The translations under genes were made by a program, and so were the position numbers. From positions 1 to 29,297 of IMG/VR virus record IMGVR_UViG_3300042293_000805: 29,297 nt of DNA. One strand, given 5' to 3'. Below the pieces are notes generated by a model. It was given only the letters and a program-made list of their open reading frames with translations. It searched no databases and was not told the DNA's origin. The stretch comes from a virus. Of this stretch, positions 8,004-29,297 are shown in pieces. Numbering within the stretch: position 1 is the first letter of the stretch; the number at the start of each line of letters is the position of its first letter.

Positions 8004-8031
8004 TTGACTATAATTTGATCTGTGTTATAAT
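8004..8031 (+). promoter_or_regulatory. Sigma-70 type early promoter with extended -10, leaderless geometry
   Basis: TTGACT at 8004-8009, a 16-bp spacer, then TATAAT at 8026-8031 preceded by TGT (extended -10). This is close to perfect for the host housekeeping sigma factor. Only six bases separate the -10 from the dUTPase ATG at 8038, so the expected start point (about 7 nt after the -10) falls on the A of the ATG. It should drive the early replication operon 8038-17678. Confidence 0.8.
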
Positions 8032-8037
8032 GTTGAT

Positions 8038-8475
8038 ATGTTAAAAGTTTATAAACTAAATGATAAAGCAACACTTCCTAAGTTTGCCACAGAACAATCT
8101 GCATGTTTTGATATTGCATCTTCTGAGTCATACATTATAGCTCCCGGTGGAACTATGGCTATTTCTACAGGATTGATTTTTGACATTCCTCTTGGCTATT
8201 CCATCAGACTACATCCACGATCTGGTCTTGCATTAAAACATGGAATCACTATGAAGAATGCAGAAGGAGTCATCGATTCTGATTATACCAACGAACTCAA
8301 GGTACTTGTGTGGAATACACAAATATGCACATTCTTTGAGATAAATCCGGGTGATCGTATTGCTCAGGGAGAATTAGTAAAAAATCTTGACTATACTATA
8401 GAAGAGTGTTATACTGCTCCCGTGCAGAAAACTAACCGTGTTGGTGGGTTTGGTAGCACAGGAATAGGATCTTAA
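8038..8475 (+). CDS. dut: Trimeric dUTPase
   Basis: Hydrolyses dUTP to dUMP and PPi, keeping uracil out of phage DNA and feeding dUMP to the ThyX encoded downstream. At 145 residues it has normal family length, and all five conserved motifs are visible: SACFDIAS (21-28), HPRSGLALKHGI (59-70, with the PRSG loop), GVIDSDYTNELKV (78-90, with catalytic-site Asp), GDRIAQGEL (105-113) and VGGFGSTG (135-142). Motif 5 has RVGGFG rather than the usual RG.GGFG. There is no Shine-Dalgarno, and the promoter sits directly against the ATG, so the first gene of this early operon appears to be translated from a leaderless mRNA. Confidence 0.95.
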   Translation: MLKVYKLNDKATLPKFATEQSACFDIASSESYIIAPGGTMAISTGLIFDIPLGYSIRLHPRSGLALKHGITMKNAEGVIDSDYTNELKVLVWNTQICTFFEINPGDRIAQGELVKNLDYTIEECYTAPVQKTNRVGGFGSTGIGS

Positions 8476-23608: not shown

Positions 23609-24235
23609 TTAATATCCCTTTTCTTGGTTACTTAGCTGAACTTCTATTGAATCTCTTGCATCTCTAATGTGACATGATGCCATTTGTTTATTTACAGCAT
23701 CGAGTTCTTTTTCATCACACCACTGAATGAGCAAGAAGGCAGTAATAACACCTTTTACTTTTATTGGCAATATCGACAATCCTTGAACATTATTTTCTTC
23801 TAGGAATTGTTTTGAGTATGAATGTATTAGATCATTTATATGAAAAGGAGTTCCATCTGTTTTTAACATAATAGACAACAAAGGAACAAACATAGAACAC
23901 AATAGCCCTGTCATTCTTCTTGAGTCTGCTGAGACTCCTTTGACAAGAGACTCATGAGTTAATGTGAATTTACGCATGGATACCCCATCCATGAAATACT
24001 CTCCATTATGAAATTGTAATACTTGAGTTCTATCAGAGTTAGTTTGAATTCTCAGCTCAGTCAAAGTTTCATGTATTCCGGTATGAACACGAATAAATCC
24101 AATATGTTCTTTTTCATTGTCTGGTTTTTTCGCAAACATTTTTATAGATGCTGCAATGACTCCAACAATTACTCCGGAAATTATTGTAATGGTTTCAAAC
24201 CACGATACATTACTTGCGCTTGACATATTTAACAT
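23609..24235 (-). CDS. Membrane-anchored GAF-like sensory domain protein
   Basis: A 208-residue protein with one N-terminal membrane segment (about 15-34, TIISGVIVGVIAASIKMF) and a soluble domain. The stretch GIHETLTELRIQTNSDRTQV followed by LQFHNGEYF is the opening of GAF-like domains, which bind small molecules. Later strands (VQGLSILPIKVKGVITAFLL) fit the end of a GAF fold. There is no attached kinase, phosphodiesterase or HTH. The ligand and output are unknown. It overlaps the end of the 1098-residue gene by 26 nt; a second ATG at 24226 is also possible. Its place inside a block of head proteins is odd for a membrane sensor. Confidence 0.62.
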   Translation of the reverse strand: MLNMSSASNVSWFETITIISGVIVGVIAASIKMFAKKPDNEKEHIGFIRVHTGIHETLTELRIQTNSDRTQVLQFHNGEYFMDGVSMRKFTLTHESLVKGVSADSRRMTGLLCSMFVPLLSIMLKTDGTPFHINDLIHSYSKQFLEENNVQGLSILPIKVKGVITAFLLIQWCDEKELDAVNKQMASCHIRDARDSIEVQLSNQEKGY

Positions 24236-27200
24236 CTTTTGTTGAATTTACTGCGAATGGGGTATCTTTTATGTATTTTAGTAATAAAGCTTTAGTTCCT
24301 ACTTCTCCAGCACCGTGTTCTTCATGCATAGCACGATTTTTACTCTTAGACAATACTCTCAAATTGCCATTGGAGTTGTTTTGTGGATTTCCATCTTTAT
24401 GATCTACATCTTTTCCATCACCTTTTTTAACTCGACCAGTTTTCATCAACTTGCGTCTAGCTAAAACTCTTTTACTACGATTTGCTCTTTGCTCCGCAGT
24501 ACCATGATACTCTTTATATTCTTTTTTATAGTTACGAGCTTCTTCTATGAAGCTCTCAAACAGTTCTGGTCTAATCACGCTGTTTTCCCACATCTCATGA
24601 AGCAGATCTATTGCATTAACTTTTTCGACATTCTTTATAATTGTCTCGTATGAAACCAAGCCAGACGAAAGAATAAAATCAACTGCGTCTTGATCGTTCA
24701 TGTTCTCAACTAAGAAATCATTTATAAAGTCATACGCTTCTGACATTTCTTCTTTACCAGAAGTATCGAATTGAGAATAGTCTACAACAGGTATTGCAAC
24801 TTCTGTTTCCCCATCTATTGTGATAATGTTATAGTCTCTTGCAGCACTATCGATATAGTCAGACATGTCAAGTGCATTTGATGTTATGAATTCAGGTTCA
24901 ATACCAATATAATTCATTAAACCAACAACATCATCTCCAATGTCTTTTAAATCTTGATCAACCTGCGCCGATGATCCGGGATTAATTATTGATGTATTTA
25001 CTTGTTGCTGTTGTTGTTGCTGATTATCAGTTTCGAACTCTTCATTCAAATCAATGTTCAGTACAGTTGATAATCCTCTGATCTTATTTGCACCCGAACC
25101 TTTAGATCTTCCTTTGAAACCACCTCTAAAGCTAAGATCTTTCATCAGTTTCTTAATCAAAGATTCTGATATTTGTTCCATCTTTACATCCGTGCCATCT
25201 TTGCTCAATGCTAAAACATGACTGGCAGTTTGTGGTGCCTTTCCACCAAACTTCATACTACCACTCATACTCTCAAGGCAGAATCCCATTTTGAATTCGT
25301 CGCTTGAGTCAAATATTTCTATTAGCTTAGCTCCTGCTTTTTTATGCAATAGTTCTTGTTCTTCGATAAGAACCTTCGATGCTTGAAATTGTTTATCTCT
25401 TGGTTCTTGACCATCGGCAACCATTCTTTTTATGGTTTTTGTGTCCCATTGTCCCAGTTCTGCAGATTTTACAAATTGACTAACCATTTTCTTCAGTTCA
25501 GTCACTAGTTTGGAGACTTTTGGACTTTTAGCAGCAATATTTCCTGCATATTCCATTGCTGCTTCAATTGTGGCAGTAGCTTCTCCCGATTCTGCGTTTA
25601 GAATTCTAGCTTGTCCGCATTTGACACTAGCTCTAATGCATTTATTCATATCAATTTTTGAAATATCTCCTTTAGATTTTTCCCAAAGATCTTTTGGTAT
25701 GAATATTACATCAGTCTTTGATGTTCCATTCGTAGCTCCAGCTTTCTTCCACAACTCAGAAACTCTTCCCTTGTTCTTTCCCATATGAAAAGAAACTGTT
25801 TCTCCAATTTGGTTGAATATTAAATTTGCTGCTCGTTCAGCTGAAGCATATAGAGTCTGACTATTCTGCAGTTTTGCAATAGTACCTTCGTTCTCTGTTC
25901 CAGTCTTAACTCCCAACATTTGATTCATAACAATTGGAATTGCTTCTTCGAGATCCGTTGCTTTATGATTCCAATCGGGGAATGTGGATCCTTTGCTAAT
26001 AGCTTTTCCGTGTGGGGGAGTTTCAGGAAGTTGTGGAAGAATTGTTCTTGGATTTTCCTGAGTCACAGTTGGAGCAGGAGCTTCTTCTGCTTTCTTCTTT
26101 TTCTTCTTCTTTGGTTCTTCTTTTTTGTTTCCCTTTTTCTTACCTTCTTGTTTTCTTGCCCACTCAGGAAATAGTTTCTTAGATGATGGAGTTATGGCAA
26201 AGCTGGAATCGTCAAGATATTTTGCAGCTTTGCCTCTGTCAAAATGTTGGGGATCAACAAGAACCTGAGAACTGCCAATATCAGCTTTGTCTACAATTTT
26301 GGTTTTACCACCCTTTGTGGCTACAACAGCAAACTGAGCTTTTTTCCCTTTGCGCTCCTCTTGCTTTCGGATTGTATCCTTCTTCTTTGGATTTCCTGCG
26401 CTGCGAACTTCTGTTCTAACATTCGCTCTCACCTTAGAAGGAGATGCTACTGATTTCTTTTTCATTTTGGTAGCTTCATTCAACGATTCTTCTTTGACTT
26501 CTCGCGATACTTCTTGCGACACTTTGTCGCGAGCATCTTTACGATTAGCCAATTTCTTCAATATAGCATTAGCACTTTGTGTGCTCATACCCACTCTTAT
26601 AGCTGCTTTTTTTCCTAGTATAATAGAAGAACCTATTGCTTTGCTTTCTTCTAGCATATTCACAAATGATTCTATGGATTCAGGCGAGAAATATTCAGTT
26701 ATATTTTTCTTCTTTGCTGCATTTCTAGTTCTAGCCATAGCATTTCTTTCTACTCTTCTCTTTTCTTCTGCTCCGGGAACGACATCGGTAAACTGCTTAC
26801 GAAGCATGGTTGCATATTGTTTTGTACCTTTAGCTTTGTGTATGGATTCTGGCATAAAGGCACTAGCCAATTCATCATCTCCTGCTAGAATTGCTTTTCT
26901 CATTCTACCAGCTTTTGCATGTTCTACTGGGATTCTTCCATTCACAACTAGCTTTTTAAGTTGATCTGCAGTCAGATCTTCTTCGTTTCGTTTTGATGCT
27001 AACGGATGAAAGTCGATCTTAGTTTTATGAATAGTCTTACCATCGGATCCTACCACTCCACCATACTTTTTGACATGAGCTTCTATCTGAGTTTTTAGTG
27101 TTGGTTTACCAGTACTAGTACCAAATTGATCTGGACCAACAGCTACAGTTATATGCTTATGTCCTCCCTTTTCAATCAGATGTACAATATGATGAAAAGG

Positions 27201-27506
27201 ACTAACTGATGATTTTTGTGGTATTGTTCCAAATTTTAATTTAGTACCAGGCATGCTATCTTTAATATACGCATGCGATCCCTGTATTAGTTTTTCTTTT
27301 TGTTTGAATGCTAATGGTGCATCCGGAGCATTCTCTGAAGCACCAAGTCCATGATAGAAGTGACTATACCCAGTAGAAGCAGCATGAGCAGCTGCAGCTT
27401 GAGCAATTTCCTCGTGTCCCCGTGTGTATGGATTGAATGCGCCAGTTACAAGGAAGGCAGATCCAACCGATTTTGCTTCTGTCATTAAATTGAGTAGTTT
27501 GTTCAT
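24210..27506 (-). CDS. Giant nucleotidylyltransferase-HNH endonuclease fusion, probable internal virion protein
   Basis: 1098 residues. After a leader-like MNKLLNLMTEAK comes a nucleotidylyltransferase domain (about 14-235). LVTGAFNPYTRGHEEIA carries the HxGH-type motif (T28-R-G-H31), and AKAGRMRKAILAGDD corresponds to the ISSTxxR-type C-terminal motif. The middle (about 270-990) is Lys/Glu/Pro-rich linker and unrecognised domains, with a basic run near 470 and a Q7 tract. The C-terminus (about 990-1060) is an HNH nuclease: EYHGTAEQRANRSKRV, then DVDHKDGNPQNNSNGNLRVL. Related giant cytidylyltransferase-like proteins occur in T4-like cyanophages. A packaged or injected enzyme is a reasonable inference; substrates are unknown. 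No Shine-Dalgarno or clear promoter is visible. Confidence 0.75.
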   Translation of the reverse strand: MNKLLNLMTEAKSVGSAFLVTGAFNPYTRGHEEIAQAAAAHAASTGYSHFYHGLGASENAPDAPLAFKQKEKLIQGSHAYIKDSMPGTKLKFGTIPQKSSVSPFHHIVHLIEKGGHKHITVAVGPDQFGTSTGKPTLKTQIEAHVKKYGGVVGSDGKTIHKTKIDFHPLASKRNEEDLTADQLKKLVVNGRIPVEHAKAGRMRKAILAGDDELASAFMPESIHKAKGTKQYATMLRKQFTDVVPGAEEKRRVERNAMARTRNAAKKKNITEYFSPESIESFVNMLEESKAIGSSIILGKKAAIRVGMSTQSANAILKKLANRKDARDKVSQEVSREVKEESLNEATKMKKKSVASPSKVRANVRTEVRSAGNPKKKDTIRKQEERKGKKAQFAVVATKGGKTKIVDKADIGSSQVLVDPQHFDRGKAAKYLDDSSFAITPSSKKLFPEWARKQEGKKKGNKKEEPKKKKKKKAEEAPAPTVTQENPRTILPQLPETPPHGKAISKGSTFPDWNHKATDLEEAIPIVMNQMLGVKTGTENEGTIAKLQNSQTLYASAERAANLIFNQIGETVSFHMGKNKGRVSELWKKAGATNGTSKTDVIFIPKDLWEKSKGDISKIDMNKCIRASVKCGQARILNAESGEATATIEAAMEYAGNIAAKSPKVSKLVTELKKMVSQFVKSAELGQWDTKTIKRMVADGQEPRDKQFQASKVLIEEQELLHKKAGAKLIEIFDSSDEFKMGFCLESMSGSMKFGGKAPQTASHVLALSKDGTDVKMEQISESLIKKLMKDLSFRGGFKGRSKGSGANKIRGLSTVLNIDLNEEFETDNQQQQQQQVNTSIINPGSSAQVDQDLKDIGDDVVGLMNYIGIEPEFITSNALDMSDYIDSAARDYNIITIDGETEVAIPVVDYSQFDTSGKEEMSEAYDFINDFLVENMNDQDAVDFILSSGLVSYETIIKNVEKVNAIDLLHEMWENSVIRPELFESFIEEARNYKKEYKEYHGTAEQRANRSKRVLARRKLMKTGRVKKGDGKDVDHKDGNPQNNSNGNLRVLSKSKNRAMHEEHGAGEVGTKALLLKYIKDTPFAVNSTKDVKYVKRK
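25002..25022 (-). repeat. Glutamine-codon microsatellite (Q7)
   Basis: Seven in-frame CAA/CAG codons on the minus strand inside the 1098-residue gene, encoding seven glutamines in an unstructured linker. Such tracts can change length by slippage. Confidence 0.7.
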
Positions 27507-27607: not shown

Positions 27608-27949
27608 TTAAATGAGTTTTTCTACCTTGATGAATCCTTTGTGGCTTTTGCGCTTACCATTCATCAGTTCATACATGGCAGATTTCGATAGATCGTGTAT
27701 TCGGCAGAACTCCATGAAGTTTTGCACGAGAAAGGATGTTCCAGTAGAGCTGGTAAACATCCAAAGTTTTGTTGGAGTTTGTTCTGTTTCTTCCGCTTTT
27801 TCGTCCCATTTCCATGCAGATCCTGTCTTTATGAACCTACCACCATACTTTTCTACAAAGGCAGATCTATATCTGTGAGAAAATGCAGTTTCGTTGGCTT
27901 TTACCCATTCTCTACTGTTTTTTATGTTAATCAGTTGTGTGCTATTCAT
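27608..27949 (-). CDS. Small protein with NUMOD-like helix-turn-helix
   Basis: A 113-residue protein. The C-terminal segment (about 77-108: FMEFCRIHDLSKSAMYELMN, then GKRKSHKGFIKV) matches the HTH-like DNA-binding modules (NUMOD1 type) found with homing endonucleases and as small stand-alone phage proteins. The N-terminal half (about 13-50, basic, with YGGRFIKTGSAWKW) is a separate small fold, and no nuclease motif is present. It overlaps the upstream exonuclease gene by eight bases and is followed by a strong terminator. It probably binds DNA, perhaps as a regulator or a remnant of a mobile endonuclease. Confidence 0.65.
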   Translation of the reverse strand: MNSTQLINIKNSREWVKANETAFSHRYRSAFVEKYGGRFIKTGSAWKWDEKAEETEQTPTKLWMFTSSTGTSFLVQNFMEFCRIHDLSKSAMYELMNGKRKSHKGFIKVEKLI

Positions 27950-28595
27950 GATGATCTTTCCTAAAAGTATCTATTGCTTTTTTGAGTTTACGAACATAAT
28001 TAACAGGATTTCTTTCAAACACTTGAACCTCTCCTGTTTCGCATGTGATGATTATACAAATATTTGTTATGGGAATTCCAAACAATTCTTGCCACATTAT
28101 TGCATACGCAGTTGTCTGTGTAAAATAATTCTCAATGTGTTCTTCTGTCTTTAATCTAGTGCTTCCTTTGAAGTCTATTACTGACAATTTTCCATTGAAT
28201 TCTGCAATGCAATCGATTCTTCCTGCTAGTTTTAAGTTCTTGCTGAACAGCGGAGCTTCTATTGCATGAATGTTATCAATTTGATCTAGGATAGGCTTTG
28301 TCTGGAGGAAAAGATCCAGTACATCCGGCATGATCTCTTTCGATTTGAGATCTTGGTTTAAGAGGTATCTTTCGATGATGGAGTGCAGGTTTGTCCCTCT
28401 TTTTATTACCCGCTTTGATTCTGCTTGATTGTTTTTTCGCCATTGTGCAAAAAATATACGTTTTTCCCAACCAGTTACTGTTGTTACGGAAGGATAATGC
28501 ACACCTTCGCAAAGATATCTGCGACCGTTAATCTCATCTTCGACGGATTCGATAGATGCGAAGGTGTGTGGAATGTGGGTAAATTGTTTGTTCAC
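27942..28595 (-). CDS. PD-(D/E)XK exonuclease (RecB/Cas4/MGME1-like)
   Basis: A single-domain 217-residue nuclease. YPSVTTVTGW (about 34-43) is the family's N-terminal signature. H71 in GTNLHSIIERY, E113, D128 (AGRIDCIAEF), D141-F-K143 (SVIDFKGS) and Q160..YA (QTTAYAIMW) give the complete active-site set. It probably degrades or processes DNA ends in recombination, or host DNA. The start must be GTG 28595: an in-frame TGA lies two codons upstream and there is no other Met codon before the conserved motifs. A sigma-70 promoter ends only seven bases before it, implying leaderless translation from GTG. Confidence 0.9.
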   Translation of the reverse strand: MNKQFTHIPHTFASIESVEDEINGRRYLCEGVHYPSVTTVTGWEKRIFFAQWRKNNQAESKRVIKRGTNLHSIIERYLLNQDLKSKEIMPDVLDLFLQTKPILDQIDNIHAIEAPLFSKNLKLAGRIDCIAEFNGKLSVIDFKGSTRLKTEEHIENYFTQTTAYAIMWQELFGIPITNICIIITCETGEVQVFERNPVNYVRKLKKAIDTFRKDHHE

Positions 28596-28602
28596 TAGTC
28601 AC

Positions 28603-28631
28603 AGTATACATCATGAATACGCTGTAGTCAA
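28603..28631 (-). promoter_or_regulatory. Sigma-70 type promoter with leaderless geometry for the exonuclease
   Basis: On the minus strand TTGACT (28631-28626), a 17-bp spacer, and TATACT (28608-28603). Seven bases separate the -10 from the GTG start at 28595. The expected start point falls at or next to the G of GTG. The -35 directly adjoins the stop codon of the upstream gene (28632-28634). Confidence 0.75.
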
Positions 28632-29297
28632 TTACTTTTTAGGTGCAGTTCTAAACTGGCTAGTAACGTCATGATTTTTTTCATCATAGACTTTGAAGTT
28701 ACTTTTGCCACTAACAATACGCATTACACCTTTATGAGAAACAGCTGTTCCTTTTTTCTTCATGCCTTTATCCGTGAAACTAATCTTGAATAGCTTTTTC
28801 TTGTGCTTTACTATAGATTCTTGCAGTTGTGGACGTGCAACTTCTTGTTCAGCCTGTCTTTGGGTCATCATTTGGATACCATATGAATCTGTGGTAAGAG
28901 TTCCACCATAGTTTGGGGTCTCAGTTGTTTTATTTTTCTTTTTCTTTTTGGAAATGTTTTCGGGATCTGTTGTGTCTGTTGTGTCTGTAAGGGGAGCAGG
29001 AATAGTTGCAGTCGGAGGTGGGGGCGGCATAGTAGGGGGAGCAGCTTCGCCTAGCGTCTTTTTTTCAATCCTACCATTTTCTCCTACTTCTTTTTCTTCT
29101 TTCTCTCCTAATCGTCCAAGTCTTCTTCCAACTTCATTTCCAGCCGCAGTAGCTGCTGCTCTAGTTCCAGCTCTCAATGCCATTGCTCCTAATCCCCTAG
29201 CAGCAGCACCGCCAACAGCAGCAGCAGCAGGAGTAGCTATAGTAGCAGCAGCTGTGGTAGCAGCAGCGCCAGCAGCAGCACCGCCAGCAGCAGCACC
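28632..29297 (-). CDS. Ala/Gly-rich low-complexity protein (5' partial)
   Basis: The frame is open to the right edge of the window with no stop, so the start lies beyond 29297; ATG 29183 is internal. The visible part begins with an Ala/Gly tract (GAAAGGAAAGAAATTAAAT) and then a charged stretch. A Pro/Thr-rich linker follows (PPTMPPPPPTATIPAPLTDT), then a poly-Lys run. The C-terminal ~65 residues form a basic small domain (HKKKLFKISFTDKGMKKKGT; VSGKSNFKVYDEKNHDVTSQ). No family is recognised. The first part may be an amphipathic or membrane-active region of a virion protein. Confidence 0.65.
   Translation of the reverse strand, partial: GAAAGGAAAGAAATTAAATIATPAAAAVGGAAARGLGAMALRAGTRAAATAAGNEVGRRLGRLGEKEEKEVGENGRIEKKTLGEAAPPTMPPPPPTATIPAPLTDTTDTTDPENISKKKKKNKTTETPNYGGTLTTDSYGIQMMTQRQAEQEVARPQLQESIVKHKKKLFKISFTDKGMKKKGTAVSHKGVMRIVSGKSNFKVYDEKNHDVTSQFRTAPKK
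29196..29297 (-). repeat. GCT/GCA trinucleotide repeat region encoding Ala/Gly tract
   Basis: Interspersed GCT GCT GCT and GGC GGT units on the minus strand, seen as repeated gcagcagca on the plus strand up to the window edge. They encode AAAG-type repeats and may be prone to length change or assembly error. Confidence 0.6.

Follow-up and report, generated by a model that had tools for sequence, protein, structure and literature searches.

The cI mRNA of phage lambda is leaderless. Leaderless initiation in lambda is also mentioned in a survey of bacterial and archaeal genes (PMC3160421), the accessible part of which describes bacterial leaderless genes with a TANNNT or Pribnow box centred on a distance of about 12 bp upstream of the start codon, puts their share above one fifth of the genes of Actinobacteria and Deinococcus-Thermus, and names Deinococcus-Thermus, Aquificae and Actinobacteria as the bacterial groups with the highest shares. 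For mycobacterial leaderless transcripts, initiation needs no more than an ATG or GTG at the RNA 5′ end, according to the available text of PMC4633059. The idea of leaderless phage messages is in general not new, since the available text of the AR9 paper (PMC5312081) remarks that transcripts of phages frequently lack a leader. For Melnitz, a marine T4-like phage, 31 early promoters are predicted, and the part of its description at hand does not mention leaderless placement (PMC9004378). Judged by titles and abstract openings, we found no literature report of a group-wide leaderless promoter design in T4-like phages.

We analyzed a 29,297-nt stretch of viral DNA (the window; IMG/VR record IMGVR_UViG_3300042293_000805, positions 1 to 29,297) in which a promoter-like site ends directly before an exonuclease gene. 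We consider it quite probable that this site is a sigma-70-type promoter whose RNA starts on or one base before the GTG start codon, that the message is leaderless, and that the site is one case of a group-wide design. Taken by themselves, the leaderless reading of the exonuclease promoter is likely and a leaderless strategy at the level of the phage group is well supported, both as predictions from sequence.

As in the bacterial leaderless genes surveyed in PMC3160421 (accessible part), the first T of the −10 lies 12–13 bp before the start in these phages and the exonuclease lacks a Shine-Dalgarno (SD) sequence; the genes here differ in belonging to phages and in having a strong −35 and a TATAAT-like core. 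The trait shared with the mycobacterial transcripts, a start codon at the RNA 5′ end, is predicted here from sequence, and unlike in mycobacterial systems there is no match to WhiB in the eight phage contigs described below. With lambda cI, the likeness is a phage mRNA predicted to start at its start codon, but cI is a single repressor gene, whereas here many genes of a lytic-type genome are concerned. The hexamers are of the host sigma-70 type, as in the early promoters of T4 and Kyanoviridae, and T4-type late boxes also occur in this group.

The putative exonuclease promoter and its dUTPase companion

The features of the two sites in the window are as follows.

28632..29297, minus strand: upstream gene, cut by the window edge; contig G003 conserves its C-terminus, which there too stands directly before the exonuclease promoter
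28626..28631, minus strand: candidate −35 hexamer TTGACT, 5 of 6 to TTGACA, abutting the TAA of the upstream gene
28609..28625, minus strand: 17-nt spacer between TTGACT and TATACT
28603..28608, minus strand: candidate −10 hexamer TATACT, 5 of 6 to TATAAT
28596..28602, minus strand: 7-nt gap GTGACTA between TATACT and the exonuclease GTG
27942..28595, minus strand: PD-(D/E)XK exonuclease gene, 217 aa, GTG start (phrog_298, PF12705, N-terminus alignment)
8004..8009, plus strand: companion −35 TTGACT, upstream of dUTPase
8026..8031, plus strand: companion −10 TATAAT, 6 nt before the dUTPase ATG
8038..8475, plus strand: dUTPase gene in leaderless-type arrangement, two genes ahead of DNA polymerase B; its relative in contig G002 matches the phrog_135 dUTPase

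The first-pass annotation had read TTGACT, 17 bp, TATACT, seven bases and a GTG, which is exact at 28631–28593 on the minus strand. The hexamers of the putative promoter are of sigma-70 type, with 10 of 12 positions matching and a spacing of 17 nt, inside the 16–18 nt range that we used. The distance of 7 nt from the −10 to the start codon (28595–28593, minus strand) lies within the range of about 6–7 nt taken as leaderless, and inspection of the upstream sequence found no SD-like tetramer before the GTG. Because the upstream gene, on the same strand as the exonuclease, ends at 28632 (TAA at 28634–28632), the 36-nt intergenic gap is occupied entirely by the putative promoter.

The exonuclease matches phrog_298 (E 2.2e-62) and PF12705 (35.8 bits, cut-off 22), profiles of the T4-superfamily exonuclease with its PD-(D/E)XK core. 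Its GTG had been held to be fixed by an in-frame TGA two codons upstream; that TGA is present (28601–28599), followed by CTA (28598–28596), and the next in-frame start is a GTG at codon 32, one codon before the conserved HYPSVTTVTGW motif. We regard the start as sound because residues 1–31 align with the G003 protein (69% identical) and the best matches among named cyanophages start at query residue 4 (residue 5 of the protein).

The companion site (8004–8040, plus strand) reads TTGACT-16-TATAAT-6-ATG. It had been described as lying on the opposite strand with the same geometry; the strands are indeed opposite, but the geometry agrees only approximately, since the spacer is 16 rather than 17 nt and the gap 6 rather than 7 nt.

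In the window, hexamers alone are no commoner than chance, and placement before a start codon is what matters. Promoter-like sites with at least 9 of 12 matches were not enriched (42 found versus 56.9 expected from shuffles, 10–29.3 kb). Fifteen sites matched at 10 or more positions, and 2 of these 15 ended 6–7 nt before an ATG or GTG opening at least 60 codons. A simple Poisson estimate with 33 window genes, hand-picked from the ORF list, gave an expectation of about 0.017 sites so placed and a P(≥2) of about 1.4e-4; none of 8 Markov simulations contained one. Against the main reading, the exonuclease hexamers match at 10 of 12 positions only, and hexamers of that quality arise by chance.

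We then compared the exonuclease upstream region in 27 loci, leaving out L027, which starts inside the gene. Both hexamers, the 7-nt gap and the GTG are retained in three close relatives (L001 and L002, each 97% identical over 6.3 kb, and L003, 92%), with one spacer base changed in L002 and L003. In G003 (exonuclease 69% identical in protein) the site reads CTGACT-17-TATACT-5-ATG, with the same upstream gene in front, and in G002 (52%) it reads TTGATT-17-TACAAT-6-ATG. The promoter was absent in G001 and G005/G006, as well as in the 20 more distant loci L007–L026, where upstream sequences were read by eye. In the annotation of three named cyanophages, the exonuclease gene overlaps or closely follows PhoH.

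The dUTPase comparison covered 32 loci, 29 of them with a start to examine. A promoter with 10–11 of 12 matches ended 6 or 7 nt before the ATG in 23 of these 29 loci, which represent 16 different upstream sequences. When five other offset ranges were scored as controls, no locus among the 29 rose above 9 of 12. The loci with no promoter at 6–7 nt were L044, L046, L055, L057, L058 and L059. L032 and L033 (98% identical in protein) have another upstream sequence and, at an unchanged distance, another promoter.

Placement of leaderless-type promoters across the phage group

Because the window record is only 29 kb, the genome-wide scan was run on larger relatives. We searched eight contigs of the phage group (G000–G007, 570 kb), which are not a random sample because they were chosen for holding an exonuclease or dUTPase relative, for TTGA-N18..20-TANAMT-N6..7-ATG, with an offset of N26..27 as control. 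GTG starts are not in the pattern, so the window exonuclease is uncounted. The pattern occurred 52 times at 6–7 nt and 5 times at 26–27 nt. Counts for G000 to G007 were 1, 10, 12, 2, 1, 7, 14 and 5, versus 0, 2, 2, 0, 0, 0, 0 and 1 at the control offset. Eight of the 52 sites repeat sites in sister contigs, as each of the 7 G005 sites is found again in G006 and the single G004 site corresponds to the one in the window. The annotation had proposed leaderless initiation as an early-gene strategy of this phage. As a general strategy it is supported by the larger relatives, two of which (157 and 154 kb) hold 12 and 10 sites, versus 2 each at the control offset, so that the cases are not just two. 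A histogram of distances over ATG and GTG frames in the larger contigs peaked at 6–7 nt. The 13 named, cultured T4-superfamily phages that we scanned (2.36 Mb) differ from the group in having no excess at this placement (13 sites versus 22 at the control offset).

A rough gene caller, with coverage of 0.56–0.90 that was poor on short contigs and with both window genes missed, was kept out of the main counts. With its calls, the excess was clear in G002 (15 versus 1–4), weak in G001 (13 versus 3–11) and absent in G003 (3 versus 0–6). Among the 44 genes that it called as leaderless, counting the overlap of G005 and G006, none had an SD, a result partly forced by the geometry.

At T4-like PolB loci of the genome collection (28 of 80 loci used), 20 sites were found versus 11 and 9 at two control offsets, a weak excess. 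Six whole genomes were reached via these loci; the pattern outnumbered its reversed control chiefly in one of them (43 versus 13), and several of the pattern sites lay on contigs also holding a T4-like PolB. For the exact pattern, with 120 loci scored at a 6-nt gap and 112 at the 26-nt control, a frame of 60 or more codons followed the ATG in 79 of 121 versus 89 of 118 among the matches listed, which show no excess. Three IMG/VR contigs fetched by pattern alone (L195, L252 and L253) each hold two or three exact copies of TTGACA-17-TATAAT-6-ATG; the design may therefore reach beyond the phage group.

Position of the RNA start and competing readings

Bacterial initiators lead one to expect a pyrimidine at −1 when transcription starts at the A of the ATG. 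We observed a pyrimidine at −1 in 39 of 47 nonredundant 6–7 nt sites, compared with 89 of 177 SD-led genes (Fisher p 5e-5) and 196 of 385 other genes (p 2e-5), the control genes being taken from the rough gene caller. The window dUTPase fits this expectation with a T at −1. The window exonuclease has an A at −1 and belongs to the 8 of the 47 sites that lack a pyrimidine. From promoter geometry and the pyrimidine test, we infer that its RNA starts at A28596, in a T-A step, or at G28595, for a leader of 1 or 0 nt; the one-base leader seems likelier because there is no pyrimidine at −1 and the T-A step falls at 28597–28596.

The exonuclease could instead be translated from a longer read-through mRNA of the upstream gene, by coupling that needs no SD, and the promoter-like site would then be incidental. 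The upstream gene does run on the same strand and stops 36 nt before the GTG, the exonuclease gene lies within a co-directional row in named cyanophages, and about half of the genes found by the rough caller have no clear SD. Nevertheless, the promoter geometry is kept while the sequence diverges, and many unrelated genes share this placement, so we regard read-through as unlikely.

It is also conceivable, and in our estimate distinctly improbable, that the promoter is real and its RNA starts inside the gap, with a leader of several nucleotides and a 6–7 nt spacing that reflects genome compaction. Distances show a sharp peak at 6–7 nt rather than a broad spread of short values, and the −1 pyrimidine excess argues in the same direction, even though gaps of 5 and 8 nt do occur (5 of 52 nonredundant sites in the gap 5–8 set) and the window exonuclease itself has no pyrimidine at −1. 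A true start elsewhere, such as codon 32, would turn the promoter into one with an ordinary leader, and the annotated start of the P-HM1 exonuclease does lie downstream of the point where its match begins; the N-terminal alignment with G003 and the cyanophage matches from residue 5 make such a start very improbable.

Under the leaderless reading, a host-type RNA polymerase would use the compact promoter abutting the exonuclease start codon, the RNA would begin at that codon or one base earlier (leader 0–1 nt), and the ribosome would initiate with no SD, presumably by 70S-type initiation. Across the group, genes or gene rows would each carry a promoter of ~36 nt directly against the start codon, a design that would serve dUTPase, DNA polymerase, exonucleases and many small genes with no known function. 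If this is true, an uncultured T4-like phage group depends on leaderless translation for its DNA-replication genes, its hosts are predicted to have ribosomes accepting leaderless mRNA, the signature can be used to call gene starts and promoters of these phages, and many natural phage genes become available for studying leaderless initiation.

Genes served, timing and host

We scanned 10 of the 12 G002 genes with 6–7 nt gaps for families. They included dUTPase, both halves of a split DNA polymerase, an exonuclease (phrog_107) and a gp33-like late regulator; two more fell in families of unknown function and three had no family. Many of the G006 genes with leaderless-type promoters are short frames. 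DNA polymerase B is split into two genes in G002 (L071:13553-20000 with L072:1-621) and G007 (L095), with tRNA genes between the halves, and is intact in the window, where it matches phrog_262. Both G002 halves carry leaderless-type promoters.

The replication and nucleotide-metabolism functions of some of these genes, and the presence of separate T4-type late boxes, suggest early timing. The late boxes (TATAAATA) occur separately from leaderless-type promoters. G002 has 8 of them 14–19 nt ahead of an ATG; of its 14 boxes that are followed by an ATG within 60 nt, 9 come with an SD. Boxes 4–7 nt before an ATG were found 7 times in G001 and 5 times in HTVC008M (L098, 100 kb examined), and late genes may therefore be leaderless in some phages. 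A translational split, with replication genes as leaderless mRNAs on intact 70S ribosomes and late genes, in some phages such as G002, behind T4-type boxes about 14–18 nt upstream and an SD leader, strikes us as unlikely; if true, the phage would switch its use of host ribosomes between phases, or early synthesis would survive blocked host initiation.

The suggestion in the annotation that the GTG is deliberately low in efficiency found no support. The GTG penalty depends on the host, leaderless GTG having less than 10% activity in E. coli and activity comparable to leadered ATG in mycobacteria (PMC4633059, available text), and G002 and G003 have an ATG in the leaderless position at the exonuclease.

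Neither Photo_RC (psbA), whose absence is weak evidence as the contigs are fragments, nor CsgG was found in the eight contigs. PolB relatives in the genome collection reached no more than 47% identity and were spread across bins unrelated to each other. Among named phages, the window PolB is closest to that of S-SSM4 (50% identity), which is filed under Kyanoviridae. In Actinobacteriota, 29 of 149 genomes matched the G002 tmRNA, over only about 26–38 nt of its 3′ end. A permuted tmRNA (RF04321) is present in G006 (L093:6247-6437) and an ordinary tmRNA in another relative (L074:14357-14752).

Elsewhere in the window, a trypsin-like serine protease gene (PF00089, 17719–18489) lies between the ribonucleotide reductase and RuvC-like resolvase genes, and 24210–27506 encodes a 1098-aa protein with lysine-rich and glutamine-rich stretches and a C-terminal HNH_3 endonuclease domain.
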